DNA from: a virus
IMG/VR virus record: IMGVR_UViG_3300021375_001709
Coordinates: 1-36,628 of that record
Reading direction: 5' to 3' (one strand)
DNA: 36,628 bases
In this document: one piece after another, positions 5,623-36,628 of the stretch
Layout of the letters: the number at the start of each line of letters is the position of its first letter
Position numbering within the stretch: position 1 is the first letter of the stretch
Position numbers and translations under genes: made by a program
Notes under the pieces: generated by a model
The model's database searches: none
What the model was told of the DNA's origin: nothing
Seen by the model: only the letters and a program-made list of their open reading frames with translations

Positions 5623-5651
5623 ATAATACACTAAGATGCCTTACTTGTCAA
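5623..5651 (-). promoter_or_regulatory. Early-type promoter with palindromic spacer
   Basis: On the minus strand TTGACA (5651-5646), a 17-bp spacer and TATTAT (5628-5623) form a sigma70-like promoter. An overlapping TATAAT (5625-5620) is an alternative -10. The spacer holds the core AAGGCATCTT, a near palindrome shared with four other promoters in the window. It lies directly behind a terminator hairpin and precedes the 79-aa gene. Confidence 0.8.
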
Positions 5652-8100: not shown

Positions 8101-8129
8101 AGTATACAGTAAGATGCCTTACTTGTCAA
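8101..8129 (-). promoter_or_regulatory. Early-type promoter with palindromic spacer
   Basis: On the minus strand TTGACA (8129-8124), a 17-bp spacer and TATACT (8106-8101). The spacer reads AGTAAGGCATCTTACT plus G, an inverted repeat with 6-bp arms (AGTAAG/CTTACT). It drives the 68-aa gene and the DNA ligase. It lies 14 bases past the terminator of the preceding transcript. Confidence 0.85.
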
Positions 8130-14283: not shown

Positions 14284-14292
14284 TATTTATTC
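14284..14292 (-). promoter_or_regulatory. T4-late-like promoter box
   Basis: On the minus strand GAATAAATA (14292-14284), overlapping the TAA stop of the ANL gene. It lies 25 bases before ATG 14258, leaving room for a leader with an SD. It resembles the T4 late consensus TATAAATA. Confidence 0.5.
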
Positions 14293-15345
14293 AAATCGTT
14301 GTGTACGGATGATCTTTCTTAAATTATCATCTACCCTTATCTCATCAACTTGTCTAACTTTAAATCTGGGAATATCAGCATAACGCTGTTTTACCTTTCC
14401 TTCATCTAAAGTTCCTGTATAATACAACACACATTTATGTCCTACTTGTTGGCATAACGCTAACTCAGCACCATATGCAACCGCAGTTTTTTCAATTTGT
14501 TCTGGATAAACTCTGTAAACATCTTGCTTAAACATATTAGGTACTCTGCCATTAAGAGTAAATCTATTTATATCACCCTCAACACAATCACCACTTATCC
14601 AATATTCGTCTTGTGTACTCCACTTAGCACATATTTGTGTGTTATGTAGTTTAACACTACACCCTGGAGGTATACTATCTTTTGTGTATATATTTTCTTC
14701 CTCGCTATATAAAACAATAGGAGGTACTTCTGTACTGCCGTATACGTTATAAACTTTATTTGGATTATGTGATCTCAATTCTTCCATACATCCTTCAGGT
14801 GTAAAATCACTACCTATAATTAATTTATCAACACTACTAAAGTCTAGTTCTTGCCACTTTGAATGTTTATGTAAGGATTTCCATGCGTTCGGTAATACAA
14901 GAGTATGTGTAGGTCTTACTTTGTGTATTCTATCTACGTAACTTATACCTTTAAATGTTTCAATGTACAATTCACAATCTAACTCTGCGGCCAGATATAG
15001 ACTTAATACACTCCAAGCAATACCACGTGGACTATATAAACTATAAATTTTACTGTTACTATTTAAATCAAGTAGTTTAATATTGGCTTCAACTACTTCT
15101 TGTATCGTGTCTCTTGAATGACTGATACGTTGTGGATACCCTGTTGTTCCACTAGTTGTTACGTTTACAAATCCTGGACCTTCTTCTCCATACCCGTAAC
15201 CTAATCCATGTTTCCAGTTATGCATTCCTGCTAAAATGTTTTCCTTGTAGTCTGCTGTCAGTGTTTGTTGATAGCCAGGATATTCATTTAACTTTCTTCT
15301 TAGATCAACGGAGGATAGTTCGTCCCCATCAATATATATTTTCAT
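14287..15345 (-). CDS. ANL-superfamily adenylate-forming enzyme (acyl/aryl-AMP ligase-like)
   Basis: A 352-residue enzyme with the ANL core motifs in order. The A3 P-loop is VTTSGTTGYPQR (62-73), with R in place of the usual K. A5 is YNVYGSTEVPP (199-209), A7 is YWISGDCVEGD (248-258), and A8 is NGRVPNMFKQDVYRVYPEQIE split over 265-285. Near the end VDDNLRKIIR holds the candidate A10 lysine, Lys344. ANL enzymes activate carboxylates as acyl-AMP and pass them to CoA, a carrier protein or another acceptor. The protein is about 150 residues shorter than typical members, mainly at the N-terminus. It is coupled by ATGA to the DUF6356-like gene, behind an ATP-grasp-like gene. I know of no well-studied phage example. 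The substrate is unknown. Confidence 0.9.
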   Translation of the reverse strand: MKIYIDGDELSSVDLRRKLNEYPGYQQTLTADYKENILAGMHNWKHGLGYGYGEEGPGFVNVTTSGTTGYPQRISHSRDTIQEVVEANIKLLDLNSNSKIYSLYSPRGIAWSVLSLYLAAELDCELYIETFKGISYVDRIHKVRPTHTLVLPNAWKSLHKHSKWQELDFSSVDKLIIGSDFTPEGCMEELRSHNPNKVYNVYGSTEVPPIVLYSEEENIYTKDSIPPGCSVKLHNTQICAKWSTQDEYWISGDCVEGDINRFTLNGRVPNMFKQDVYRVYPEQIEKTAVAYGAELALCQQVGHKCVLYYTGTLDEGKVKQRYADIPRFKVRQVDEIRVDDNLRKIIRTQRFE

Positions 15346-19549: not shown

Positions 19550-19960
19550 TTACCTCTTGTTAATTCCTCTTGAATTGGCTCCGCCTTTTTTGCGGATCTG
19601 TTCTAAATCTTCTAATGCACTAATAAGTGCATCCAATTTTGGTTTAAATGTGCCTTTATCCAATTCGTATTGGATTCTTTCCCAATTATCTTGGTCAGCA
19701 AATTTTGCTAAACCTTCTAGCATTTGAGTACACATACGCTTTAATTGATCTAAGTTTAATCTACCATAACCTTGAATTAATACTTCAGGATTATTAGGAT
19801 CTTCCTTATTCATAGCGTAGACACTCTCTTCTACCTTCTTTTTAGCCTTCTTTTTAATACGTTTAATGATTCCAGGTCCACCATTTAGAAATCCATTGCC
19901 ATTGCCCATTGAGCCAGCGAAGGCGCCTGATACATTTTCACTTATTTCATCTATTTTCAT
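19550..19960 (-). CDS. I-x-E-tagged small virion-type protein, 136 aa
   Basis: A 136-residue protein starting MKIDEISENVSGAFAGSMG. The first residues carry the I-x-E tag (MKIDE) and a second one (ISE). Then come a glycine-rich stretch with NGNGFLNGGPGIIKR, a basic patch (KRIKKKAKKKVEESV) and a helical domain (QLKRMCTQMLEGLAKFADQD, then KLDALISALEDLEQIRKKGG). A late-type box GCTAAATA (19988-19981) lies 20 bases upstream, with AAGG between. Late expression and packaging into the head are inferred. Function unknown. Confidence 0.78.
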   Translation of the reverse strand: MKIDEISENVSGAFAGSMGNGNGFLNGGPGIIKRIKKKAKKKVEESVYAMNKEDPNNPEVLIQGYGRLNLDQLKRMCTQMLEGLAKFADQDNWERIQYELDKGTFKPKLDALISALEDLEQIRKKGGANSRGINKR

Positions 19961-20772: not shown

Positions 20773-21177
20773 CTATATCACTACTGCTTTCGCATTTATT
20801 TCTTTTTTATTGCCGTAATCTCTGACTGCGGCTTTAATGGCATCTTCTGCCAATACGCTACAGTGAATCTTAACTGGAGGTAATGCCAGTTCTTCAACTA
20901 TAGTTGTATTTTTAATTTCCTGTGCTTCTAACAAGCTCATGCCTTTTAGCATTGTTGTTACCATGCTTGAACTAGCAATAGCACTACCACATCCATATGT
21001 TTTAAATTTGGCATCTTCAATGATGCCATCATCTGTTACTTTAATTTGTAAACGCATAACGTCTCCACATGCAGGTGCACCTACCATGCCTGTTCCAATG
21101 TCAGGGTCTTTTGGATCAAACTTACCTACATTGCGTGGATTATTATAATGGTCTAACACTTTTTCTGAGTATGCCAT
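20773..21177 (-). CDS. iscU: IscU-type Fe-S cluster scaffold
   Basis: A 134-residue protein covering the whole IscU family. MAYSEKVLDHYNNPRNVG starts the family domain. The three cluster cysteines are present in their motifs: PACGD (Cys37 with Asp39), YGCGSAIASSS (Cys63) and IHCSVLAEDA (His105, Cys106). The chaperone recognition sequence LPPVK (99-103), bound by HscA in bacteria, is intact. IscU assembles [2Fe-2S] and [4Fe-4S] clusters with sulfur from IscS. No iscS, hscA, hscB or iscA is visible here, so host partners would be needed. A full-length scaffold in a phage is unusual. It lies between a 2OG oxygenase gene and a small basic gene. Confidence 0.97.
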   Translation of the reverse strand: MAYSEKVLDHYNNPRNVGKFDPKDPDIGTGMVGAPACGDVMRLQIKVTDDGIIEDAKFKTYGCGSAIASSSMVTTMLKGMSLLEAQEIKNTTIVEELALPPVKIHCSVLAEDAIKAAVRDYGNKKEINAKAVVI

Positions 21178-21807: not shown

Positions 21808-23778
21808 TTAAAGTCCTAACAGTTCTTCTTTACTTAATTTGTATCCACTTTGTTTCCACTTTACTTTTAATTTAGCAAGTGTTTTGCCCATATCAGGTCC
21901 AGGCTTCATACCATTATCAATTAGGTCTTTTCCAGTAAGTGGAAATTCTGGAGATTTGAATGATCGTGCCTTAAGTGCAAGTGAATCTTGTCCTTGCATT
22001 CTTAATAAATTTGCTGTCCATTCTGGATTGGCGCCATCTACTAGTAACCATTCCATTGCTTCTTTAGATAGTTTTGTCTTTTTATGTTGTGTATAGAATG
22101 CTAATTCTTTACGTTGCTCGTTGGACATTTTCCATGCCATTGCTATTTTAGCATCATTTACTAATACCGCCAAGTTCATCATAGGGTTATCAAATTTAAC
22201 ACCCTGTGCGTTTGCTACTGGCAATCCTATAACTTTTGCAACACCTGTTTTACCCATAAATGTAAGTACCTCAGGCGCACTAGATCCTACCAATAGTTTA
22301 GACATCTCTTGCCATACTCGTTCTACTGATACGCCAGATAGTCCACCAGCATTATCTTTTATTGCTTTCAATGCTTCCTTACTAAAGTTAGGTTTATCTA
22401 ACTTACTTTGAAAACGGAAGTAACGTAATACACGCAAGTAATCTTCCTGGATACGCTCTGCAGGATCTCCAACAAACTTGCTTACTTGATTTTGAAGATC
22501 ATCCATGCCACCAAAGTAGTCATGTATTTCACCATCAAGACTCATGCTCATAGCATTATATGTTAAGTCTCTACGTTTAGCATCTTCTTCCCATGATTTA
22601 ACAAATTCAACTTCTGAATGTCTACCATCAGGATTTACATCTGCTCGTAATGTTGTTATTTCGTAAGGCTCACTGTTGATTACTGCTGTTATTGTTCCAT
22701 GCTCTATTCCAGAAGGTACATGTCTTATTCCTTCCTTCTTAAACATTTCTATCATCTCATTTGGAGTTGCATCAGTTGCTAAATCTATATCTTTAGGATC
22801 TTTACCCAGTGCAACATCTCTTACTGCACCACCAACTATGCGTATCTCATATCCTGATCTAGCAAATATTTTACCCATACGTTTTACGTCAGGAGATAAT
22901 ATAGATGTATCAGTTGATACTTCTTCTGTAGTGAAGTGCTTCTGACCATTAGTTGTTTTACGTTTCATACCATATGCTTTCATTGTACTGTATATTGGTA
23001 CTAGCCCATGTTCACTTGTAATATCATTAGCCGCTTTTTCTGCTTCAGGACCCTTAGGGTGTTTAGGATTAATATGCACAACATCACCGTTCATCATATC
23101 ACTTACACTAGCAGATTTTCCTACTTTGTCAAGTAATTTATGCAATTTATCTTCAGGATCATATCCAGTAGTTTCATATCCCATCTTACCACGGACTTCT
23201 GAACGCCTGCCTGTCTTAGTGTCTTTAATATGTAATACAAGCATATTGGCACGTTTATCACGCTCTAACTGTAACATATAGCCTTCATTAGTTTTCTTTT
23301 TTCTATTAGATATTGCTGAAGCACCTGCTCCTAGAGCGGCGGCGATCTGATCTGGTGAGGCACCTGGAGGTGCACTTCTAACCCAGCCTTTAATTACATC
23401 TGCGCCTACTTTAATTCCTTTTTTAACTAATGCCCTGCCAACAGCCGCCACAACAGGAATAAGTGGTGCCCACTCGTCTACTTTTTTATCCTTAGTAGCG
23501 GTAGGTTTCATTCTATCATGCTTGGAAGGTTTTGCAAGTTGTTTAAGATTTGGTAGTTTTGGATCTGGAGTTATTAACTTCTCATTCTTTTGTCTACCAC
23601 GTTTCATATTTCTAAGATAGTGAGCTCGCTCTCTCTTTGCACCAGTTGCAGTACTAGCAATTTTATCTAACTGTGCTAGTGTAGCACCTTTAGGAATTCC
23701 TAAAGCACTTGATGACTTTTCTGTCATAGTTGTGTCCTCTGTATCAGGCTTACATATTTTTAATTCATTGATCTTCAT
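21808..23778 (-). CDS. cca: CCA-adding enzyme fused to a phage-specific N-terminal extension
   Basis: A 656-residue protein. Residues about 300-650 are a bacterial-type (class II) tRNA nucleotidyltransferase: RIVGGAVRDVALG (313-325), the catalytic KDIDLATDATPNE (Asp330, Asp332), KRRDLTYNAM (401-410), ERIQEDYLRVLRYFRF (441-456) and the terminal GKDLIDNGMKPGPDMG (616-631). The enzyme adds or repairs CCA on tRNA. The first 300 residues are foreign to the family. They contain an I-x-E tag (MKINELK), a basic stretch, WAPLIPVVAAVGRALVKKG (103-121) and an unknown domain with MLVLHIKDTKTGRRSEVRG (179-197). The late-type box CTAAATA lies 5 bases before the ATG. Head packaging is inferred. Confidence 0.93.
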   Translation of the reverse strand: MKINELKICKPDTEDTTMTEKSSSALGIPKGATLAQLDKIASTATGAKRERAHYLRNMKRGRQKNEKLITPDPKLPNLKQLAKPSKHDRMKPTATKDKKVDEWAPLIPVVAAVGRALVKKGIKVGADVIKGWVRSAPPGASPDQIAAALGAGASAISNRKKKTNEGYMLQLERDKRANMLVLHIKDTKTGRRSEVRGKMGYETTGYDPEDKLHKLLDKVGKSASVSDMMNGDVVHINPKHPKGPEAEKAANDITSEHGLVPIYSTMKAYGMKRKTTNGQKHFTTEEVSTDTSILSPDVKRMGKIFARSGYEIRIVGGAVRDVALGKDPKDIDLATDATPNEMIEMFKKEGIRHVPSGIEHGTITAVINSEPYEITTLRADVNPDGRHSEVEFVKSWEEDAKRRDLTYNAMSMSLDGEIHDYFGGMDDLQNQVSKFVGDPAERIQEDYLRVLRYFRFQSKLDKPNFSKEALKAIKDNAGGLSGVSVERVWQEMSKLLVGSSAPEVLTFMGKTGVAKVIGLPVANAQGVKFDNPMMNLAVLVNDAKIAMAWKMSNEQRKELAFYTQHKKTKLSKEAMEWLLVDGANPEWTANLLRMQGQDSLALKARSFKSPEFPLTGKDLIDNGMKPGPDMGKTLAKLKVKWKQSGYKLSKEELLGL

Positions 23779-23790: not shown

Positions 23791-24900
23791 TTACTTTCCA
23801 CAATGAAGCTTGCATGTAGAAAGTTTGTCAAACCCCTCTAATAACTTTTTGTACCCTGGACCTTGTTTGATTTCAGCAATACTATTGTTTGCAATATTCA
23901 TACTTGCTACATCTTCCTCAGTTAATTCTAAGTCACGTATTAGTTCACCTTTTTGTGTTCTAGTATAACAACAAGGATAAAACATTCCATCACTACCAAT
24001 AAAATGTGCAAATTTATCTACATTAATGCATTGAGGATCAACATGCTCTGTTACATATTTTTCTTTAACTTGTGTAATGTCTACGGCAGTTGCTCCTGCT
24101 TGCCTAGTTACAAACTGTTTGTCAATATTATTAATGTCAATTTCTTTTGATCTTTTTTGTACTACCTTAGCAATTTTATCCATTTCCTTTACTTTTCTAG
24201 TACGTGGGTGGATCTGTATTCTAAGACGTGGTATAAAGACATCGCTTTTGCTTACTAATTCACTATAGTAATCTTCTAACATTGACAAGTTATCTTGAAA
24301 ATCTGCAATTTCAACATACTGGCCTTCAACAGTTCTTTTTGTATGTACTAGTTGAAACTGTTTAATTCCAAGTTCACATGCTAAATCATATGCTATTTTC
24401 ATATCTTCGTAACTGCTATTGTATTTAAAAACAATATACTTCCAACGTGTTCTTATGTTGTATTCTTTTAGTATTTCCATACCACGTCGTATTGTTGGCC
24501 AATGCCCATTTACCCTATACTGCATAAAGTTATCTGGTGTTCCATCAACACTGAATACAATGGTATCTGTAGGTCCAACATTTTGTCCTATACCATGCCA
24601 TACTGAATCCTTTACATAACTACCATTTGTTTCAAATGTGTGATGTATTCTATTCTCTTTTAAGTGAGATAAAACTTCAATTAATCTTGGGTGATAAACA
24701 CCATCACCATATGAGCCTGCAAATACTACATCATAATCAGGTGTATCCAATACTTGCATTAATCTGTCTGCATCTATATGTCCATTATCCCATATATGTC
24801 GTTCACTAACACGAGTTACCCTTGGACACTTTGGACAAGCCAATGTGCATTTACTTGTAAGTTCTACTTCAAGTGTTGTGGTTTTAGGAAAGGTTATCAT
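23791..24900 (-). CDS. Radical SAM protein with C-terminal Cys-rich (SPASM-like) end
   Basis: A 369-residue protein. The radical SAM cluster motif is SKCTLACPKCPR (Cys18, Cys22, Cys25), with glycine-rich VFAGSYGDGVYHP (about 59-71) and the strand FSVDGTPDNFMQYR later in the barrel. The end carries GMFYPCCYTR and DKLSTCKLHCGK, cysteine groups that suggest a SPASM/twitch-type auxiliary cluster. Such enzymes modify peptides or proteins, or build cofactors, using SAM and an electron donor. The late-type box GAATAAATA lies exactly 5 bases before ATG 24900. It overlaps the second radical SAM gene by 17 bases. Confidence 0.9.
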   Translation of the reverse strand: MITFPKTTTLEVELTSKCTLACPKCPRVTRVSERHIWDNGHIDADRLMQVLDTPDYDVVFAGSYGDGVYHPRLIEVLSHLKENRIHHTFETNGSYVKDSVWHGIGQNVGPTDTIVFSVDGTPDNFMQYRVNGHWPTIRRGMEILKEYNIRTRWKYIVFKYNSSYEDMKIAYDLACELGIKQFQLVHTKRTVEGQYVEIADFQDNLSMLEDYYSELVSKSDVFIPRLRIQIHPRTRKVKEMDKIAKVVQKRSKEIDINNIDKQFVTRQAGATAVDITQVKEKYVTEHVDPQCINVDKFAHFIGSDGMFYPCCYTRTQKGELIRDLELTEEDVASMNIANNSIAEIKQGPGYKKLLEGFDKLSTCKLHCGK

Positions 24901-26050
24901 GTATATATTTATTCAGCTCTGGATCAAAGTCATTTAACTTAACTGGGCCTCGCTCATCCCAAAAGTCAACTACTTGTTTTAATTTCCATCTGTAATCTAC
25001 ATGTGGTTTTTTCAGTTGTGCAATAATGCTATCACTTCCCCAAGCAAGTTCATCATTGTCTTCGAACCATTGCAGTACATCTGTACGCATTGATTCAGGT
25101 AATCTATAAAAATGGAATGGACTATTTCCATATGCTGGTCTTACATTTATTTGTACTTCTGGAAATCTTGTTTTAAGATAAGTTATAAGTTCAGGTGCTT
25201 GTCTAACACTTAAACTATTTAAAGTTAAGTCCCAACATTCTATTGCAAAATACTTATAGTATTGATCCATGACTTTTAGTTTGTGTTGCCAGTTTGTACC
25301 GTTACGCACATACTCATCTACTGCGCCAACACCATCTATACTAACTCGCATAACTAAATTATAGTCCTTAAAACGCCTTATATCTTTATCTTTAAGTAGT
25401 CTAGTACCATTTGTATTAATAACATAACGTGCATTAGGTGCCTTAACCATCATTCTATGCAATATATCTTCAAAGTTATTAACATAAAAAGGCTCACCAC
25501 CTGCCATATAAACATGTTGTAAGTTTTCATCTATACCATCAAATATGTTCTGCCATGCTTGTTCATCATTACACCAATCCATTGTCTTTGGATTATGATC
25601 CTGTAGAATACGTTCTGCTGTACCTTTTTCCCAACCATAATGTTCTGACATTTCTGGCACTAGTTTGTATAACTGTATACTACTATAGCTATTGCACATA
25701 ATACATCTTAAATTACACGTATTACCTATACGCAAATCTAACCCACGTATTACTGTATCGTTAAATGGAGTATTTGTTCCGAATGTGCCACGCAATGCTT
25801 TCTGTCTAAAACTACGTACACCGTCTAGTTCAGGTTCAAAGCAATGCCCACAACCAGTAGGGCAACCACCCGATGTGAATTGCTCTCTAACAGTGTTTAT
25901 TTCATCACTGTTCCATATAGTTGCTAAACTATGTTCTTTTATATTATAGGGTAATCTGTGTTCACCGTTATTGCAACATAGAGCTGGTTGGCCTTTATGT
26001 CCAATATGTGCGTAATTGAATGGGTAAACACAATAGTTGTATGGGTGCAT
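24884..26050 (-). CDS. Radical SAM protein with N-terminal SPASM-like segment (paralogue 1)
   Basis: A 388-residue protein. Unusually, the SPASM-like cysteines come first: ALCCNNGEHRLPYN (Cys25, Cys26), SLATIWNSDEINTVREQF, then GGCPTGCGHCFEP (Cys63, Cys67, Cys70). The radical SAM core follows, with GNTCNLRCIMCNSYSS (Cys112, Cys116, Cys119), MAGGEPFYVNNFED, VINTNGTRLL and RVSIDGVGAVDEYVR. In canonical SPASM proteins the order is the reverse. It is clearly homologous to the 408-aa protein at 27136-28362. These enzymes modify peptides or proteins, and the substrate is unknown. The ATG follows the previous stop directly (TAGATG). Confidence 0.9.
   Translation of the reverse strand: MHPYNYCVYPFNYAHIGHKGQPALCCNNGEHRLPYNIKEHSLATIWNSDEINTVREQFTSGGCPTGCGHCFEPELDGVRSFRQKALRGTFGTNTPFNDTVIRGLDLRIGNTCNLRCIMCNSYSSIQLYKLVPEMSEHYGWEKGTAERILQDHNPKTMDWCNDEQAWQNIFDGIDENLQHVYMAGGEPFYVNNFEDILHRMMVKAPNARYVINTNGTRLLKDKDIRRFKDYNLVMRVSIDGVGAVDEYVRNGTNWQHKLKVMDQYYKYFAIECWDLTLNSLSVRQAPELITYLKTRFPEVQINVRPAYGNSPFHFYRLPESMRTDVLQWFEDNDELAWGSDSIIAQLKKPHVDYRWKLKQVVDFWDERGPVKLNDFDPELNKYIHDNLS
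24906..24914 (-). promoter_or_regulatory. Late-type box exactly 5 nt before ATG
   Basis: GAATAAATA (24914-24906), TATAC, then ATG 24900 of the third radical SAM gene. It lies inside the end of the preceding coding region. T4-like spacing predicts transcription start at the ATG. Confidence 0.5.
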
Positions 26051-26572: not shown

Positions 26573-26699
26573 TACACTTCCTCAATTCTTCCTTTAGGGC
26601 TTCTATTTCCTGTTGTAATTCTGCAATCTTCCTTTGAGCTTCAATTAGCTCTTGTGTTCCTCTATATCCGTATTCCGTATATGTTGGTCCTTCTACCAT
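26550..26699 (-). CDS. Small coiled-coil protein, 49 aa
   Basis: A frame from ATG 26699 to TAA 26550-26552, giving 49 residues. Its ends overlap both neighbours (7 bases upstream, 23 bases downstream), which is common here. The product starts MVEGPTYTEYGYRGT and then forms a clear heptad helix (QELIEAQRKIAELQQEIEAL and KEELRKC, residues 16-42). It probably oligomerises. No SD is obvious. The heptad pattern supports coding. Confidence 0.6.
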   Translation of the reverse strand: MVEGPTYTEYGYRGTQELIEAQRKIAELQQEIEALKEELRKCNENTFNY

Positions 26700-27139
26700 T
26701 TACGACAGCTCCAATAACGAGCCTTATGTCTTGGTCCAGGATTATCACAGTTGTGTCTTGCTCTAAACGAACGTCTACGTGCTGGATTGTTCTTTTTGAT
26801 CTTAACACCTTTTTGTCCAAAGTTAACTTTAACTACATTACCTTTTGGATTCTTAACGTATACTTTAAACTTCTTAACATCACCTGCCATTGGCTTACCA
26901 AGTTTAACTTTACGTCCTTGGTATTCTGCTTCGTCTAGAATTTCATCTTCGTTGTACCACATAACACCATAATCTTCAAAAAATGCATCGTCATCATGGT
27001 ATGTAAATTCATTGTCATTCTCTTTGACACAATTATTTACACGAACGCCGCCCTTCATTTTAGTACCTTGTTTTTTATAGCCATCCCAACATTTAGGATC
27101 TAAACGTTGTTTAGCTTCTGAAATTTCATTAATTTTCAT
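26693..27139 (-). CDS. I-x-E-tagged Cys-containing basic protein, 148 aa
   Basis: A 148-residue protein starting MKINEISEAKQRLDPKCWDG. Positions 3-5 (INE) and 6-8 (ISE, followed by A) both match the I-x-E/A prohead protease rule. Two conserved-looking blocks follow: GYKKQGTKMKGGVRVNNC (20-37), and the C-terminal PARRRSFRARHNCDNPGP with ARYWSCRKW (119-148). Cysteines are at 17, 37, 131 and 145, possibly a zinc site. The C-terminal block recurs in marine phage proteins as I recall. A late-type box GATAAATA (27175-27168) lies 28 bases upstream with AAAGGTGATG. It lies between two radical SAM paralogues. Confidence 0.82.
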   Translation of the reverse strand: MKINEISEAKQRLDPKCWDGYKKQGTKMKGGVRVNNCVKENDNEFTYHDDDAFFEDYGVMWYNEDEILDEAEYQGRKVKLGKPMAGDVKKFKVYVKNPKGNVVKVNFGQKGVKIKKNNPARRRSFRARHNCDNPGPRHKARYWSCRKW

Positions 27140-28362
27140 GACATCACCTTTATATTGCTGTTACCGGTATTTATCCATTCTGCCAATTCTGGATCAAAAC
27201 TCTCTAAAGTTAAAGCACCGTGTGTATCGTAGTAATTTACAAATCGCTTCATTGACTTTCTTCTGTTTTCATCCTCCACATGAGGCTTCTGCATCTCATG
27301 TATGACATGGTCAATACCTTCTAACTTGTCACTATGTTTTATAAAATAATCTAAACTCTCTTGTTTATATTCTGCTGGTATATTTTCCATCATAATTTCA
27401 TATTTGTTAATTACAGGACGTACTTGTATTTTACTATTAGGATATCGCTCACTAACAAAGTCAATTAATTTTGGAATGTGTCTAACACTCAGTGGATTAG
27501 CAGTTATATCCCATACTTGTACACCAAATGTTTTATAGTACTGATCCATTACTGCAAGTTTTTCTTCCCATACAGTATCTTGTCTAGTATATTCTTCAGC
27601 AGGTCCCCAACCATCTACACTTAAACGTATCATAATGCCCTGTATCTGCTTCAATTTTTGTATATCTTTATCACGTAGTAATCTAGTACCATTTGTATTA
27701 ATGGCAATCTTTGCATTAGGTGCTGTTTTCCAAATACGTTCTACTGTACTAGGAAAGTTTTTAAGATAAAAAGGTTCACCACCTGCTAGATATAAATGCC
27801 TTAGATTACTATCAATACTACTTAAAATATTCTCCCACGCCTGTGGATCATCACTCCAGTCGTAATGCCTTCTATGAAACTTATCCAGTTGTTTGTTTAA
27901 TCTTTCTTCAGGCCAGTTAAAATGTTCTGCCATTTTAGGTAAGTGTTGGTATATTCTATTACTATTACCTGCAAAACACATAATACATGCTAGGTTACAT
28001 ATATTACCTAAACGTAGGTCTAGAGCACGAATCTTTGTGTCCTCAAAAGGAACACCTCTGTTAATCATACCAAGTGTTTTTTGCCTAAAACTTCGTATAC
28101 CATTTCGTTCTGGATCAAAACATTTTTGTCCACAACCTATTGGTTCACCACCATTAGCAAGTTCTTGGCGTACACTATGCATTTCTGGACTATTCCAAAT
28201 TTCACTTAATTTGTAGTCTTTGATATTGTACTTGGTAATTTTGTTTTTTAAGTTTTTACAACACAATGCTACATAGCCATCATTATCAATGAAGCTATAA
28301 TTAGATGTGAATATGCAATACTTGTCTGGATCAGTGGTATTGGGGATCTTATGGGGGATCAT
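27136..28362 (-). CDS. Radical SAM protein with N-terminal SPASM-like segment (paralogue 2)
   Basis: A 408-residue homologue of the 24884-26050 protein. The N-terminal cysteines are VALCCKNLKNK and GEPIGCGQKCFDPERNGIRS, with LSEIWNSPEMHSVRQEL between. The core cluster motif is GNICNLACIMCFAGNS, followed by LAGGEPFYLKNFP, INTNGTRLL and RLSVDGWGPAEEYTR. The shared blocks (FRQK, LDLR-GN-CNL, GGEPFY, NTNGTRLLRDKDI) show a duplication followed by divergence. Its stop overlaps the start of the tagged Cys protein as ATGA, so the two are co-translated. The substrate is unknown. Confidence 0.9.
   Translation of the reverse strand: MIPHKIPNTTDPDKYCIFTSNYSFIDNDGYVALCCKNLKNKITKYNIKDYKLSEIWNSPEMHSVRQELANGGEPIGCGQKCFDPERNGIRSFRQKTLGMINRGVPFEDTKIRALDLRLGNICNLACIMCFAGNSNRIYQHLPKMAEHFNWPEERLNKQLDKFHRRHYDWSDDPQAWENILSSIDSNLRHLYLAGGEPFYLKNFPSTVERIWKTAPNAKIAINTNGTRLLRDKDIQKLKQIQGIMIRLSVDGWGPAEEYTRQDTVWEEKLAVMDQYYKTFGVQVWDITANPLSVRHIPKLIDFVSERYPNSKIQVRPVINKYEIMMENIPAEYKQESLDYFIKHSDKLEGIDHVIHEMQKPHVEDENRRKSMKRFVNYYDTHGALTLESFDPELAEWINTGNSNIKVMS
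27168..27175 (-). promoter_or_regulatory. T4-late-like promoter box
   Basis: GATAAATA on the minus strand (27175-27168), followed by CCGG and a leader with AAAGG before ATG 27139. It lies within the end of the preceding gene. Confidence 0.45.
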
Positions 28363-29597: not shown

Positions 29598-29819
29598 TTA
29601 TTTATTCTCTCTAGGAGTTGGATTCTCGCCTGTAAGTTTTGGTTTACTAAACCATAACTTGAACCATTCATCAGTTCCAGGCTGAACATTGTGCTTTCGC
29701 ATATATCTGCTTTTTTCACTACCTATTATACTTACATTACTTTCATCAGTGCCGTTTACACGATCACCACTGTCTATGCCTGCTAATATTTTTAATCTTG
29801 TGATCTCATCTATGTTCAT
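29598..29819 (-). CDS. I-x-E-tagged small protein, 73 aa
   Basis: A 73-residue protein starting MNIDEITRLKILAGID, with the I-x-E tag at 3-5. The C-terminal half contains SRYMRKHNVQPGTDEWFKLW (about 37-56) and LTGENPTPRENK, a motif that I recall from small marine-phage proteins. I chose ATG 29819 because it overlaps the previous gene by 14 bases and has AAAGGG upstream. The longer frame to 29843 lacks the tag start. Function unknown. Its stop overlaps the late-type box of the next gene (29599-29607). Confidence 0.78.
   Translation of the reverse strand: MNIDEITRLKILAGIDSGDRVNGTDESNVSIIGSEKSRYMRKHNVQPGTDEWFKLWFSKPKLTGENPTPRENK
29599..29607 (-). promoter_or_regulatory. Late-type box exactly 5 nt before ATG
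   Basis: GAATAAATA (29607-29599), AGAGT, then ATG 29593. T4 late spacing would place the start of transcription on the A of the ATG. Confidence 0.5.
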
Positions 29820-30324
29820 TACTAATTGCCCTTTGTACATCACTAATGCTATTATATTTAATTCCTTGACCGCCTGCGGCAGTCCATTTCTTTATTTGTT
29901 GACCAAAATCGTCAATTAATATATTAGGAATTCCATTTACACCTTTAGCAAACTGTGGCTTATTATGTGTAATGTGAATGTTCTTTGGCGGAAAGAAACT
30001 TAAATTCTTAGCAATCCATTCACGTTTTTGTGGTTCTGAATTAGGATCCCCTTGTAATGGACTTGAGCAAATACTGTATGAACCATATTTGTTTTTAATA
30101 AGGTTTATTAATGCTTTTGCATCTGGTAACATTGGTAAGTTAATCCAAAAATCTTCTGTTTGTCTAATCTTTTCAAGTGCTGGGTTTACATCTTTTATTT
30201 GTCTGTAATTACTAACACCCATAAGTTTCGCCCATTCACTAAAAAAATCTGCTAGTACTCCATCCATGTCGACGTATACTTCTGCTTGTTCTTCTTTGGT
30301 GTCTGTTACTTCAAATACTTTCAT
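29806..30324 (-). CDS. 5'(3')-deoxyribonucleotidase-like HAD phosphatase
   Basis: A 172-residue HAD-fold protein. Motif I is VYVDMDGVLADFF (17-28, nucleophile Asp19 and acid Asp21), motif II is YSICSSPLQ (83-91), motif III contains HNKPQFAKG (120-128), and motif IV is ILIDDFGQQ (135-143). This is the NT5C arrangement. Such enzymes dephosphorylate (deoxy)nucleoside monophosphates. The N-terminus MKVFEV is a variant of the shared tag. The late-type box GATAAATA lies exactly 5 bases before the ATG, with no SD. A role in nucleotide pools is normal for a T4-like phage, but late expression and a packaging tag would be unusual. Confidence 0.88.
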   Translation of the reverse strand: MKVFEVTDTKEEQAEVYVDMDGVLADFFSEWAKLMGVSNYRQIKDVNPALEKIRQTEDFWINLPMLPDAKALINLIKNKYGSYSICSSPLQGDPNSEPQKREWIAKNLSFFPPKNIHITHNKPQFAKGVNGIPNILIDDFGQQIKKWTAAGGQGIKYNSISDVQRAISNEHR

Positions 30325-30337: not shown

Positions 30338-30344
30338 TAAATAG

Positions 30345-30371
30345 AAAAAACCCCCAGTAAAAACTAGGGGC
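30345..30371 (-). terminator. Rho-independent terminator
   Basis: On the minus strand GCCCCTAGT, loop TTTT, ACTGGGGG (one G-U pair), then six T's at 30350-30345. It ends the transcript of the polysaccharide-lyase-like gene. Confidence 0.85.
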
Positions 30372-30388
30372 TCTTTTTATTGTTGGGA

Positions 30389-31303
30389 TTAATGTTTAGT
30401 TACTGATACATCCTTATAGTAAACAATGGGATCAACAACGTCTGTAAACTTATCAGCTTGAGCTAGGAAACGGTGAATACCAAATGCAAACACATAACCT
30501 AAATCACGAGATCCATATTCAGAATCATCACTTTTATAGTCTGAGTGTGACATGCTATTATCACATGTGCAATCAACAACAGTTTTGCCATTAAACACAA
30601 CCTTCATTGCACCTGCATCTCCCTTCCCCCAAGTCTGTGTTACAGTAATTGTATTCCACTGTCCTTGATATTCATCTGCATTTGCAAGTTTTATATTCGT
30701 TCCAAACTTAGGATGACCCTGAGCATCCAGAATACCTCGCACACTAAAAACAAGATCCTTTTGTTTAAGTTTACTTGATTCTAGAGCATAATCACTGTGC
30801 CATTGAAACTTCATATGTCCTGTTTCGTCTGCTGGTAAAGTAGTTACTGCCCAGGCATGGTTGTCTGAATGCCAACCGTGAGTCTGTCCAAACATTTGGA
30901 TATTATGGCCTGAAAACTCTATTTCTTCTGGAACGTAAAAACTATATTCAATGGTAGTTGTATCACCAGGTTTGAAGCGAGATTTATCTTTAGTCTTATA
31001 TTCAGCACGACTGTGTTTGTTAATTTTACTGTCTGCAGAATCCTTTTGTTCGTTACGTTTGCCTTCTATACTCTGTGTACGAAAAACTGTTTCTCCATCA
31101 ATAGTACCTGTAATAAAACTATTCTTCCAAGCAATATTATTAGGTTCCCATTTCAGGTTTGTGTCAATATGTTTGGCAGAGAAACCTGACTTAACAAAAG
31201 TAAACTGTGAATCCATACTTGGATTCCAATCATTAGCTGGTATATCTGCGTTTGCCGTTGTTGCAAAAGTTATAATTGCAATAGTTGATAGTAGTTTATT
31301 CAT
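30389..31303 (-). CDS. Secreted polysaccharide-lyase-like protein
   Basis: A 304-residue protein with a Sec signal peptide: basic MNK, hydrophobic LLSTIAIITFATTA, and a cleavage site ANA-DI near residue 19-20. The mature part is a beta-sandwich-type sequence with HSRAEYKTKDKSRFKPGDT (about 98-116), IEYSFYVPEEIEFSGHNIQM, GQTHGWHSDNHAW and MKFQWHSDYALE, consistent with the heparin-lyase-I-like (PF14099 type) polysaccharide lyase fold. The family call is from pattern memory. Export from the infected cell is unusual for a phage enzyme outside the tail, and the product may cleave surface or environmental glycans. SD AGGAGG before ATG 31303 is perfect. A terminator follows. Confidence 0.72.
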   Translation of the reverse strand: MNKLLSTIAIITFATTANADIPANDWNPSMDSQFTFVKSGFSAKHIDTNLKWEPNNIAWKNSFITGTIDGETVFRTQSIEGKRNEQKDSADSKINKHSRAEYKTKDKSRFKPGDTTTIEYSFYVPEEIEFSGHNIQMFGQTHGWHSDNHAWAVTTLPADETGHMKFQWHSDYALESSKLKQKDLVFSVRGILDAQGHPKFGTNIKLANADEYQGQWNTITVTQTWGKGDAGAMKVVFNGKTVVDCTCDNSMSHSDYKSDDSEYGSRDLGYVFAFGIHRFLAQADKFTDVVDPIVYYKDVSVTKH

Positions 31304-31313
31304 AATAGACCTC

Positions 31314-31499
31314 CTAGTCTAGGTTACATTGCCAAACAGAACCATCAAAAACTGCTTTTAAAGCACCTAATGGATAGTCTGAATGTTCAAATAAGATATA
31401 GGGTGTGCTATTGTAGTCCATCTTCATAGTAACTACATTAACATCATCCATTGGTAGTTCACGTTCACCTGGTATTGATGAATTAAAAACACGTATCAT
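31314..31499 (-). CDS. Hypothetical protein, 61 aa
   Basis: A 61-residue protein. ATG 31499 shares a base with the previous stop (TAATG). It has a beta-rich start (IRVFNSSIPGERELPMDD, then VVTMKMDYNSTPYILFEHSD) and ends GSVWQCNLD. No family recognised. It is the second gene behind the palindromic promoter at 31901-31929. Confidence 0.75.
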   Translation of the reverse strand: MIRVFNSSIPGERELPMDDVNVVTMKMDYNSTPYILFEHSDYPLGALKAVFDGSVWQCNLD

Positions 31500-31867
31500 T
31501 ATGCGGCTTCCAATTCTGTTACAAATTCTACTTTAATACCTTGCTCTTCAGCGGCCAGTAAAATCTTTCTTCGCATTTCAGGCTCAACTTTATCAGCAAT
31601 CTGAGCCCAGTCTCCTTGATAGTAATAATCCTGTGAGGGCATATAATATGGAAGACAAAGTTCATGTTTAGTAACTTTTAAACATTTTAGACTTTTACCC
31701 ATATTCATTAATGCATTGTTAAAGATATCATGTACAACGTTCTGGGCAACACGATATTGCTCTAGTTTACGATTTTTAACTGGATTAGTAACACAACCAT
31801 TCATTGGAATAAGTTCATTAAGAGCTTCTGTTACTGCTTCTAAATCTTTACAAACCCAATTTGACAT
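31499..31867 (-). CDS. Hypothetical protein, 122 aa
   Basis: A 122-residue protein, the first gene after the promoter at 31901-31929. The SD AGGAAG lies before ATG 31867. It is mainly helical (SNWVCKDLEAVTEALNELI, then EQYRVAQNVVHDIFNNAL), with a short aromatic centre (CLPYYMPSQDYYYQGDWAQI) and a helical end (RRKILLAAEEQGIKVEFVTE). Five cysteines are present, but no metal motif. An early role is implied by the promoter. Confidence 0.78.
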   Translation of the reverse strand: MSNWVCKDLEAVTEALNELIPMNGCVTNPVKNRKLEQYRVAQNVVHDIFNNALMNMGKSLKCLKVTKHELCLPYYMPSQDYYYQGDWAQIADKVEPEMRRKILLAAEEQGIKVEFVTELEAA

Positions 31868-31900: not shown

Positions 31901-31929
31901 AGTATACAGTAAGATATCTTACTTGTCAA
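31901..31929 (-). promoter_or_regulatory. Early-type promoter with perfect palindrome
   Basis: TTGACA (31929-31924), 17 bp, TATACT (31906-31901). The spacer contains AGTAAGATATCTTACT, a perfect 16-bp palindrome. Unlike the others it has no terminator directly before it. Only 5 bases separate it from the preceding stop. Confidence 0.85.
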
Positions 31930-32508: not shown

Positions 32509-32537
32509 AGTATACAGTAAGACGTCTTACTTGTCAA
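32509..32537 (-). promoter_or_regulatory. Early-type promoter with perfect palindrome
   Basis: TTGACA (32537-32532), 17 bp, TATACT (32514-32509). The spacer contains AGTAAGACGTCTTACT, a perfect 16-bp palindrome. It follows a terminator hairpin by 13 bases and drives the 117-aa gene. Confidence 0.87.
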
Positions 32538-34775: not shown

Positions 34776-35081
34776 TTATAAGTTTCCTGCTGTTACTGTT
34801 GCAGTTGCCATTGTTCCGCCAATAGCTCTGATACTTGTTTGTAAATCTGTTGCGTTCCATTGACTTGATTCTAAATAAATCTTAAATGCACCTCCAGTAA
34901 ACTTACCTAGTGCAATTAAGTTACCATAAGTTTGTACTGCTTCAACAAATTTTTCCATGTCTTCACCGGGCTGGATTTGAGAATCCGCTCCTGTGGCACT
35001 GGCTATATCAAATACAACAATAGGTGAACCGAAGTTCTGTGTTTCAAAACTAATTGTATTGTTTGGATTTCTACTTGCCAT
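34776..35081 (-). CDS. Putative virion structural protein, 101 aa
   Basis: A 101-residue beta-rich protein, starting MASRNPNNTISFETQNFGSP and ending GGTMATATVTAGNL. Small residues dominate (Ala, Gly, Thr, Ser). It is preceded by the late-type box CATAAATA (35114-35107) and SD AAAGGAGG. The location beside the fibre gene and the composition suggest a virion component. No homologue can be named. Confidence 0.78.
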   Translation of the reverse strand: MASRNPNNTISFETQNFGSPIVVFDIASATGADSQIQPGEDMEKFVEAVQTYGNLIALGKFTGGAFKIYLESSQWNATDLQTSIRAIGGTMATATVTAGNL

Positions 35082-35106
35082 TCTGGCCTCCTTTTAATAT
35101 TATATG

Positions 35107-35114
35107 TATTTATG
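35107..35114 (-). promoter_or_regulatory. T4-late-like promoter box
   Basis: CATAAATA (35114-35107) on the minus strand, followed by CATATAAT and the SD of the 101-aa gene. It lies just past the terminator at 35122-35147. Confidence 0.55.
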
Positions 35115-35121
35115 CTCAGAT

Positions 35122-35147
35122 AAAAAAAGCATACCCGAAGGTATGCC
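35122..35147 (-). terminator. Rho-independent terminator with UUCG loop
   Basis: On the minus strand GCATACC (35146-35140), loop TTCG, GGTATGC (35135-35129) and seven T's. A C(UUCG)G tetraloop gives high stability. It ends the transcript of the 86-aa gene. Confidence 0.9.
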
Positions 35148-35170
35148 TTTTAAATTTCTTTAGTTTAGAC

Positions 35171-35431
35171 TTATTTAAAGTCAGCTACTACAGTAAGCGT
35201 AATGTCAGCGACATAATCACCAGATGAAGCTTCTACATCTGCAGTACCTTGTACTGCTACGTATAGTGGATCTGTTCCTACTACACCTGCAATACCTGCG
35301 AAAGTATGAGTTAGACCCAATGCTTTTTCAAGAGAATTTAGTTCTGCTTGAGTATGATCGCCAGTACCTTTTGCTACTGAGCAAATTTGTGTTCTTGGTC
35401 CTAGACCTGAACCTACGATTGCGTTTGCCAT
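35171..35431 (-). CDS. Putative virion structural protein, 86 aa
   Basis: An 86-residue protein of small residues, with MANAIVGSGLGPRTQICSVA, AELNSLEKALGLTHTFAGIA and VASS-type strands ending ADITLTVVADF. It is beta-rich and probably soluble. The SD AAGGAG precedes ATG 35431, and the late-type box GATAAATA (35500-35493) lies upstream. It sits between the fibre gene and the 101-aa gene. A structural role is inferred. Confidence 0.8.
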   Translation of the reverse strand: MANAIVGSGLGPRTQICSVAKGTGDHTQAELNSLEKALGLTHTFAGIAGVVGTDPLYVAVQGTADVEASSGDYVADITLTVVADFK

Positions 35432-35492
35432 TTTTAGACTCCTTGTTCTATTATATTAAAAATATATATCATGTGCTTCTTTGCACTACTAT

Positions 35493-35500
35493 TATTTATC
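35493..35500 (-). promoter_or_regulatory. T4-late-like promoter box
   Basis: GATAAATA (35500-35493), overlapping the TAA stop of the fibre gene. It precedes the 86-aa gene by a leader of about 60 bases. Confidence 0.5.
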
Positions 35501-36628
35501 TTTTGGCGCTAGAAACTTGCACAAACACGGTCCAATCTACAGTAGTTGACGCTTCTCCAGTAACTTCTACCTTCAAATTATTGCTAGAACCCGCTGTTAG
35601 GGCTCCAGACCAGTCACTTCCACTGTCTTCTGCGAATGTTTCTGTGCTATTTGCACCAATTAATTGATTTGTTCCGCTATTGTTATCAATAACGCCTTTA
35701 ACAACAAATCCACATCTATCACTACCACTTGAGCCAATTATACGTGCCTCAAAGAATGCAGTAGTTCCAGTTGGAATACTTAGTACAGATGTACCATCTG
35801 CTAAGAATAATTCAGTTGCCGTAGCATCTGTCGTTTGTCCTGCTAATACATATGTGTCATTTCTAACTTCTACGCTTCCAGCAGTTACTTTATTGGTAGT
35901 TCTTTCACCACCAACATAGTTATTAAATGCAACATCAAGTGAACCAAATGTCCATGTATCTGATGTTTCATTCCATAATAAAGATACATTTGTTTCTGTC
36001 CCTCTATCAATCTCAATTCCTGATGTGCCTGCTGTTACGCCTGCACCTGATTCACCAGCGTTTAGTTCAATAACATTATCGCTGATATTTGTATTTGTTG
36101 TGTTTACACTTGTGGTTGTACCACTAACTGTTAAATCTCCAGTGATTGTAGCATTACCGGCAATACTAATATTTGTACTTGTAATATCATCACTTGTTAA
36201 TGTTCCGTCTACCTGTACATTGTTAAACTGTACATTGTCTGTTGTTGCTACTGGTTGTCCAATATTAATTGTTACTGTATCTGAAGCAACACTAGTTGTT
36301 ACACCTGTACCACCTGTAAATGTTAGTGTATCAGTTAATAGGCTTACTGTATCTGTGCCAGTATCACCAGCTATTGGCAAATCACTACTTACTGTTGCTG
36401 TTCCGGCCGCTGTAAGTCTACCCTGTTGATCTACTGTAAATGTTGGTATCTGTGTTCCACTACCATACGAGCCGGCTGTTACGGCAGTATCATCTAAATC
36501 TAGAGTTCCTGATGTATTTGTTATACCAACACCACCAGTTATAGCCGCCTGGGCTCTAACATCTGTGTAGTATAAATTAGTGCCTTCAGTTAGATCAGTT
36601 GTTGTTTTAGTAGCAAGATCTGTGTTAA
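35496..36628 (-). CDS. Tail-fibre-type repetitive structural protein, N-terminus beyond the window
   Basis: The frame is open from the stop at 35496-35498 to the window edge, giving about 377 residues. The apparent TTG start at 36380 is only an internal codon. The upstream part reads [40 protein letters not shown] and [15 protein letters not shown], typical of phage fibre repeats. The next part, [33 protein letters not shown] and [14 protein letters not shown], is also characteristic. The C-terminal 120 residues ([20 protein letters not shown] and on to [14 protein letters not shown]) form a different, probably receptor-binding or tip, domain. It is likely part of the tail or a fibre. Confidence 0.88.

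Follow-up and report, generated by a model that had tools for sequence, protein, structure and literature searches.

The window analysed here, a virus record of 36.6 kb taken as a whole, contains an accessory phage gene whose product, P0001, has about an even chance of being a soluble, Sec-exported beta-jelly-roll protein of the PF14099 family (PL13/PL20-like) that cleaves uronic-acid-containing host polysaccharide. That P0001 is catalytic in any way appears somewhat more probable; it would be a lyase whose catalytic pair has become His/His, or else a relative that binds glycan and has lost catalysis. Counted against the lyase reading are a His in place of the catalytic Tyr, a structural model of low confidence and the recovery of a single close homologue.

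The open reading frame, which encodes 304 amino acids, was found at exactly the coordinates given in the first-pass annotation (30389-31303), where the strand had been left unstated; it lies on the minus strand (31303→30389), and 304 open codons would occur with a chance of ~1.6e-10 at the composition of the window. The Shine-Dalgarno sequence that had been described as perfect is indeed present (Table 1). The protein begins with MNKLLSTIAIITFATTANA followed by D, and cleavage is predicted at …TTANA↓D; the n-region contains a Lys, hydrophobicity is highest at residues 4-14 (KD 2.3), and an A-x-A site is present without a lipobox. These features of Sec export and type I signal peptidase cleavage were read from sequence and hydropathy rather than with a trained predictor. 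They agree with the signal peptide proposed initially, as does a second, different one, ending in A-M-A, on the homologue encoded by a syntenic virus record (IMGVR_UViG_3300017739_002423, hereafter G001). No other large soluble protein among the ORFs of the window has a short signal peptide of the classical kind. The endolysin of this phage (3897-4592) also has an N-terminal membrane segment, indicating that exported phage enzymes are not exceptional in this phage.

Table 1. Features of the lyase transcription unit and of P0001 (positions in the window)
Feature	Position	Strand	Basis
Sigma70-like promoter with inner palindrome, TTGACA AGTAAGATATCTTACTG TATACT, 33 nt 5' of first gene	31901..31929	-	Sequence
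122-aa ORF, first gene of lyase unit	31499..31867	-	Beside lyase in G001 too, 55% identity
Short upstream ORF, 61 aa, in lyase unit; stop overlaps lyase Shine-Dalgarno sequence	31314..31499	-	ORF list
Shine-Dalgarno AGGAGG, 6 nt 5' of P0001 ATG	31310..31315	-	Sequence
P0001, predicted exported PF14099 (polysaccharide lyase) protein, 304 aa	30389..31303	-	ORF; PF14099 score; six-frame search of record
Type I signal peptide, residues 1-19, predicted cleavage after A17-N18-A19	31247..31303	-	Sequence and hydropathy
R99-A-E101, family R-x-E motif	31001..31009	-	R and E each in 66/70 aligned cellular members
Q140-T-H142, family Q-x-H/K motif	30878..30886	-	Aligns to HepI Gln149/His151, TrGL Gln91
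His277 (CAC) at catalytic Tyr position (HepI Tyr357, TrGL Tyr200)	30473..30475	-	Alignment
Intrinsic terminator directly 3' of lyase stop codon	30345..30370	-	RNA fold of 30340-30385: -20.6 kcal/mol, z -6.2

A Pfam search assigned P0001 to PF14099 (Polysacc_lyase) with an E-value of 8.5e-10 and 39.3 bits, above the gathering score of 29.9, which upholds the earlier description of the protein as lyase-like; no alginate-lyase Pfam model was reported for P0001 in this search. A six-frame search of the whole record returned the identical match, and the G001 homologue also scored above the cut-off (38.7 bits). PF14099 contains heparin lyase I (HepI, PL13) and glucuronan lyase (TrGL, PL20). P0001 alone gave no significant sequence match in the PDB and no relative in PHROGs or NCBIfam. 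A family profile of 14 sequences (12 cellular proteins and both phage proteins), when compared with the PDB, matched glucuronan lyase 2zzj (E 6e-17) and heparin lyase I (E 7e-13), consistent with membership in the family. In the profile alignment, the R-E, Q, H and Tyr positions of P0001 fall on active-site positions of both enzymes, the residue equivalences to HepI (3imn) and TrGL having been read by counting along it, and the hallmark of PL13, the HepI insertion of ~100 residues, is absent from P0001. A further profile comparison was circular, both phage proteins being present in its second alignment, and was given no weight.

For comparison with cellular members, 75 family-profile matches were collected from PF14099-search loci in three genome draws and aligned. 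The conserved residues R99, E101, Q140 and W216 are all present in P0001, and four of the five motif residues (R99, E101, Q140 and H142) are kept. Gln occupies the Q140 position in 66 aligned cellular members, while Q-x-(H/K) ends in Lys in 41 members and in His in 23. The catalytic position of the G-x-Y motif holds Tyr in 65 of 69, the remainder being Phe (2), Leu (1) and one poorly aligned His. P0001 departs from these catalytic members in lacking the Tyr of G-x-Y, where it has His277, so catalysis is not assured and the protein may bind rather than cut. The G001 homologue has R-A-E, Q-W-K and a Tyr at the catalytic position. PDB entry titles record a HepI H151A mutant and PL7C H124N/Y220F mutants with bound substrate, entries that fit a His/Tyr mechanism, and a review of PL7 enzymes likewise agrees with such a mechanism (PMC8618178).

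Structure prediction against PL families had been suggested as a check on the lyase assignment, and its outcome was divided. An AlphaFold2 model of P0001 built from the two aligned sequences was of low confidence (pLDDT 49, pTM 0.60). With this pLDDT 49 model, Foldseek against the PDB placed lyases at the top, the first thirteen rows including ulvan lyase (PL28), Aly36B (PL36), glucuronan lyase (PL20), PL7 enzymes and HepI; VIA-align gave Z-scores of 12-13 for PL7, PL36, PL13 and PL20 enzymes, but GH16 enzymes and a sialidase lectin domain were nearly equal at ~12. A search of viral models returned chlorovirus and giant-virus proteins (E 1e-7 to 1e-4), two of them named alginate lyases. A beta-jelly-roll lyase fold class is tentatively supported by the model, while the family to which P0001 would belong within that class is taken from its sequence. 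A single-sequence structure (pLDDT 37) was set aside, and so, for folding, were alignments of P0001 together with the short cytoplasmic homologues, which had come out misaligned.

The lyase unit reads from the promoter (31929-31901) through the 122-aa and 61-aa ORFs to the lyase gene and its terminator hairpin, the last of which was missed by a consensus terminator scan and found by eye and folding. Four promoters in the window share the element TTGACA-AGTAAG(N)4CTTA-(C/G)TG-TAT, at 32509-32537, 31901-31929, 8101-8129 and 5623-5651 (-), and the same element stands directly 5' of the lyase gene in G001 (26757-26729); it was present in 11 of 250 lineage loci and in none of the shuffled controls. 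The palindrome between -35 and -10, AGTAAG-NNNN-CTTACT, precedes differing gene units and was also seen in L082, L088, L090, L094, L098, L122 and L292. This recurrence suggests that the palindrome promoters likely constitute a phage regulon with a DNA-binding regulator, for which the palindrome may be the operator, and the promoters may be early ones. A T4-type late promoter (TATAAATA), for which 5.5 matches would be expected in the window, matched there once, and not near the lyase gene. The two lyases lie behind the same element despite differing intervening genes, which, together with the strong terminator, suggests a gene whose expression is regulated during infection rather than one for a virion component.

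The DNA polymerase of the window matches phrog_262 at 1e-197, and the nearest isolate polymerases are those of the jumbo phages Phosso and Atu_ph07 of Rhizobiaceae (49-50%). The phage is probably large, of a jumbo-phage lineage, and of marine source, the latter suggested by matches of the window to Pelagibacter-phage DNA. G001 has its gene order in common with the window over ~28 kb, with most neighbours at 55-92% identity, and carries its lyase homologue at the same locus with 38% identity to P0001. A profile search of 247 lineage loci recovered only G001, and whole-record searches of 76 other lineage virus records yielded one more PF14099-like protein (G035), distant and of another type; at the lyase spot, relatives carry other genes or nothing. 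Since G001 alone shares the gene among the searched lineage records, bar the distant G035 protein, the lyase gene is accessory and rare, sits at a variable spot and, by sequence comparison, is diverging faster than its neighbours. P0001 had no relative among INPHARED phages or PLSDB plasmids, the G001 homologue gave only chance matches to phages, and IMG/VR scans with P0001, the two-sequence alignment or the G001 protein returned nothing beyond G001. Scans of genome collections for P0001 homologues found none, and profile A1 gave nothing in 394 genomes of one order, in a scan run without a positive control.

Other genes of these phages also drew our attention. By eye, large subtilase-like ORFs lie near the lyase spot of a related phage record (L020, 1330-4395 and 6600-8147). 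The window encodes an AMP-binding (acyl/aryl-CoA ligase-like) enzyme (14287-15345) that is 82% identical in relatives, and iron-sulphur assembly genes (NifU_N, NifU, FeS_assembly_P and a ferredoxin-like ORF; 498-821, 1155-1517, 1508-1804 and 20773-21177) in the same phage fragment as radical-SAM/SPASM genes (23791-24900, 24884-26050 and 27136-28362); a SufB-like ORF was likewise noted by eye in L292. A tRNA nucleotidyltransferase (21808-23778) has its PolyA_pol head domain from residue 312, behind an unexplained N-terminal extension of ~300 residues. This protein shares the start M-K-(I/V)-x-E-(I/L/V) with the unrelated products of 19550-19960, 26693-27139 and 29806-30324, and by eye these starts resemble a targeting tag such as the capsid-targeting sequence of T4.

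These observations suggest the following course of events. Host sigma70-type RNA polymerase would probably transcribe the lyase unit from the phage promoter during infection, possibly under the control of a DNA-binding regulator, and P0001 would enter the periplasm with removal of its signal peptide. Mature P0001 would most likely cleave uronic-acid-containing host polysaccharide by beta-elimination, with R99 and Q140 holding the carboxylate, H142 as the base, and His277, which replaces the usual Tyr, either acting as the acid or being substituted in that role. By cutting polysaccharide that is nascent or at the surface, in the periplasm and, once lysis has released it, outside, the enzyme could keep progeny from being trapped. 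The secreted lyase of the first-pass annotation accordingly survives as far as PF14099, the jelly-roll fold class, Sec signal peptides in two homologues and the phage context carry it, while His277 leaves its catalysis unassured. Release of the enzyme by the infected cell, which had also been proposed, fits the Sec signal only in part: in a Gram-negative host, Sec export ends in the periplasm, and the enzyme could leave the cell only through lysis or another secretion system.

The main rival is that P0001 is a glycan-binding relative without catalysis, exported during infection to occupy or coat surface or periplasmic polysaccharide, for example blocking superinfection or progeny re-adsorption. 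Jelly-roll lectin domains fit the P0001 model almost equally well, His277 stands for a Tyr kept by nearly all family members, and TrGL has Ile (QFI) at the H142 position, so that catalysis in that enzyme appears to depend chiefly on Tyr. However, R99, E101, Q140 and H142 are all retained, and the G001 homologue, at the same place and behind the same promoter, retains Tyr and QxK, which often occur together in the family; we regard loss of catalysis as unlikely. That P0001 acts strictly in the periplasm, on exopolysaccharide still being made, and so keeps capsule or EPS from building up during infection rather than attacking the finished outside polymer, seems improbable. This reading would agree with Sec export without evidence for an outer-membrane route, with a regulated promoter of non-late type and with the periplasmic alginate lyases of alginate-producing bacteria, but lysis would free the enzyme regardless.

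That P0001 is a virion-associated depolymerase, an accessory of a tail fibre or spike degrading capsule at adsorption, we consider very improbable. Tailspikes commonly contain polysaccharide lyases, and the same strand carries putative structural genes (34776-36380; weak phrog_677 match) at 3.5-6 kb upstream of the gene, but a cleavable type I signal peptide is predicted on both homologues, neither a trimerisation nor a fibre-attachment domain was seen in P0001, and the gene has its own promoter and terminator, with no fusion to a structural or tail protein in the ORF. Scarcely more credible is an auxiliary metabolic gene by which the infected cell digests environmental polysaccharide for carbon, even though CAZyme genes of viruses, those for lyases among them, are described as auxiliary in work on mangrove viromes (PMC6460857). 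The Sec signal alone would deliver P0001 to the periplasm and not outside, and oligosaccharide uptake would seem of little value in a lytic cycle. Feeding on environmental glycans had been raised initially, but none of the present observations favours it: no transporter, uptake or uronate-catabolism gene was noticed among the ORFs of the 36.6 kb.

Phage polysaccharide-degrading enzymes are known mostly as virion depolymerases. If the lyase reading is true, export of a soluble lyase from infected cells under a phage promoter would give phages a second way of handling host glycans. In its most specific form, which we hold to be quite doubtful, a phage-regulated, Sec-exported lyase with an unusual His/His active site would cut nascent acidic polysaccharide in the periplasm and so prevent EPS of the dying cell from enveloping the progeny; a jumbo-phage lineage would then act against capsule with a soluble enzyme that is no part of the virion. 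With QTH/H in one natural variant and QWK/Y in the other, the pair differs at each of the two catalytic positions, making the reading directly testable. Phages with polysaccharide lyases and viruses with CAZyme genes are already known (PMC6460857); neither open-licence papers nor the searched collections yielded a Sec-exported PF14099 protein of a jumbo-phage lineage that stands under a shared regulated promoter and has its catalytic Tyr changed.

Among known enzymes, glucuronan lyase A of Trichoderma reesei (TrGL, PL20, 2zzj) resembles P0001 in its PF14099-type sequence, its R-x-E / Q / G-x-Y framework, in which Gln91 aligns with Q140, and in the beta-jelly-roll predicted for P0001; it differs in having Ile for H142 and Tyr200 for His277 and in being a secreted fungal enzyme. 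HepI of Bacteroides thetaiotaomicron (PL13, 3ikw/3imn) shares PF14099, R-x-E and a Gln149/His151 pair corresponding to Q140/H142, but it has a long insertion (~100 residues) that P0001 lacks, and it carries Tyr357 where P0001 has His277. Aly36B (PL36, 6kcw) and the PL7 alginate lyases are similar in the predicted jelly-roll (Z ~12.5 with the pLDDT 49 model) and in the PL7 motifs RxExR, QxH and YxKAGxYxQ (PMC8618178), whereas P0001 matches PF14099 and the catalytic residues differ, Aly36B using Lys. The cytoplasmic PF14099-like phage proteins (G035 in L292, 4097-4660; L293, 3986-4561) are also phage-encoded and share the motifs, in the form ERQE, QLHD/QIHD and FG(V/A)YR, but are ~190 aa long, lack a signal peptide and keep the catalytic Tyr. 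Their genes adjoin a QueC-like gene, in L293 inside a run of radical-SAM-like genes. The G001 homologue is like P0001 in sequence (38% identity), signal peptide, locus and promoter type, and unlike it in having QWK/Y rather than QTH/H, in lying directly behind its own promoter and in having flanking neighbours that are partly replaced.
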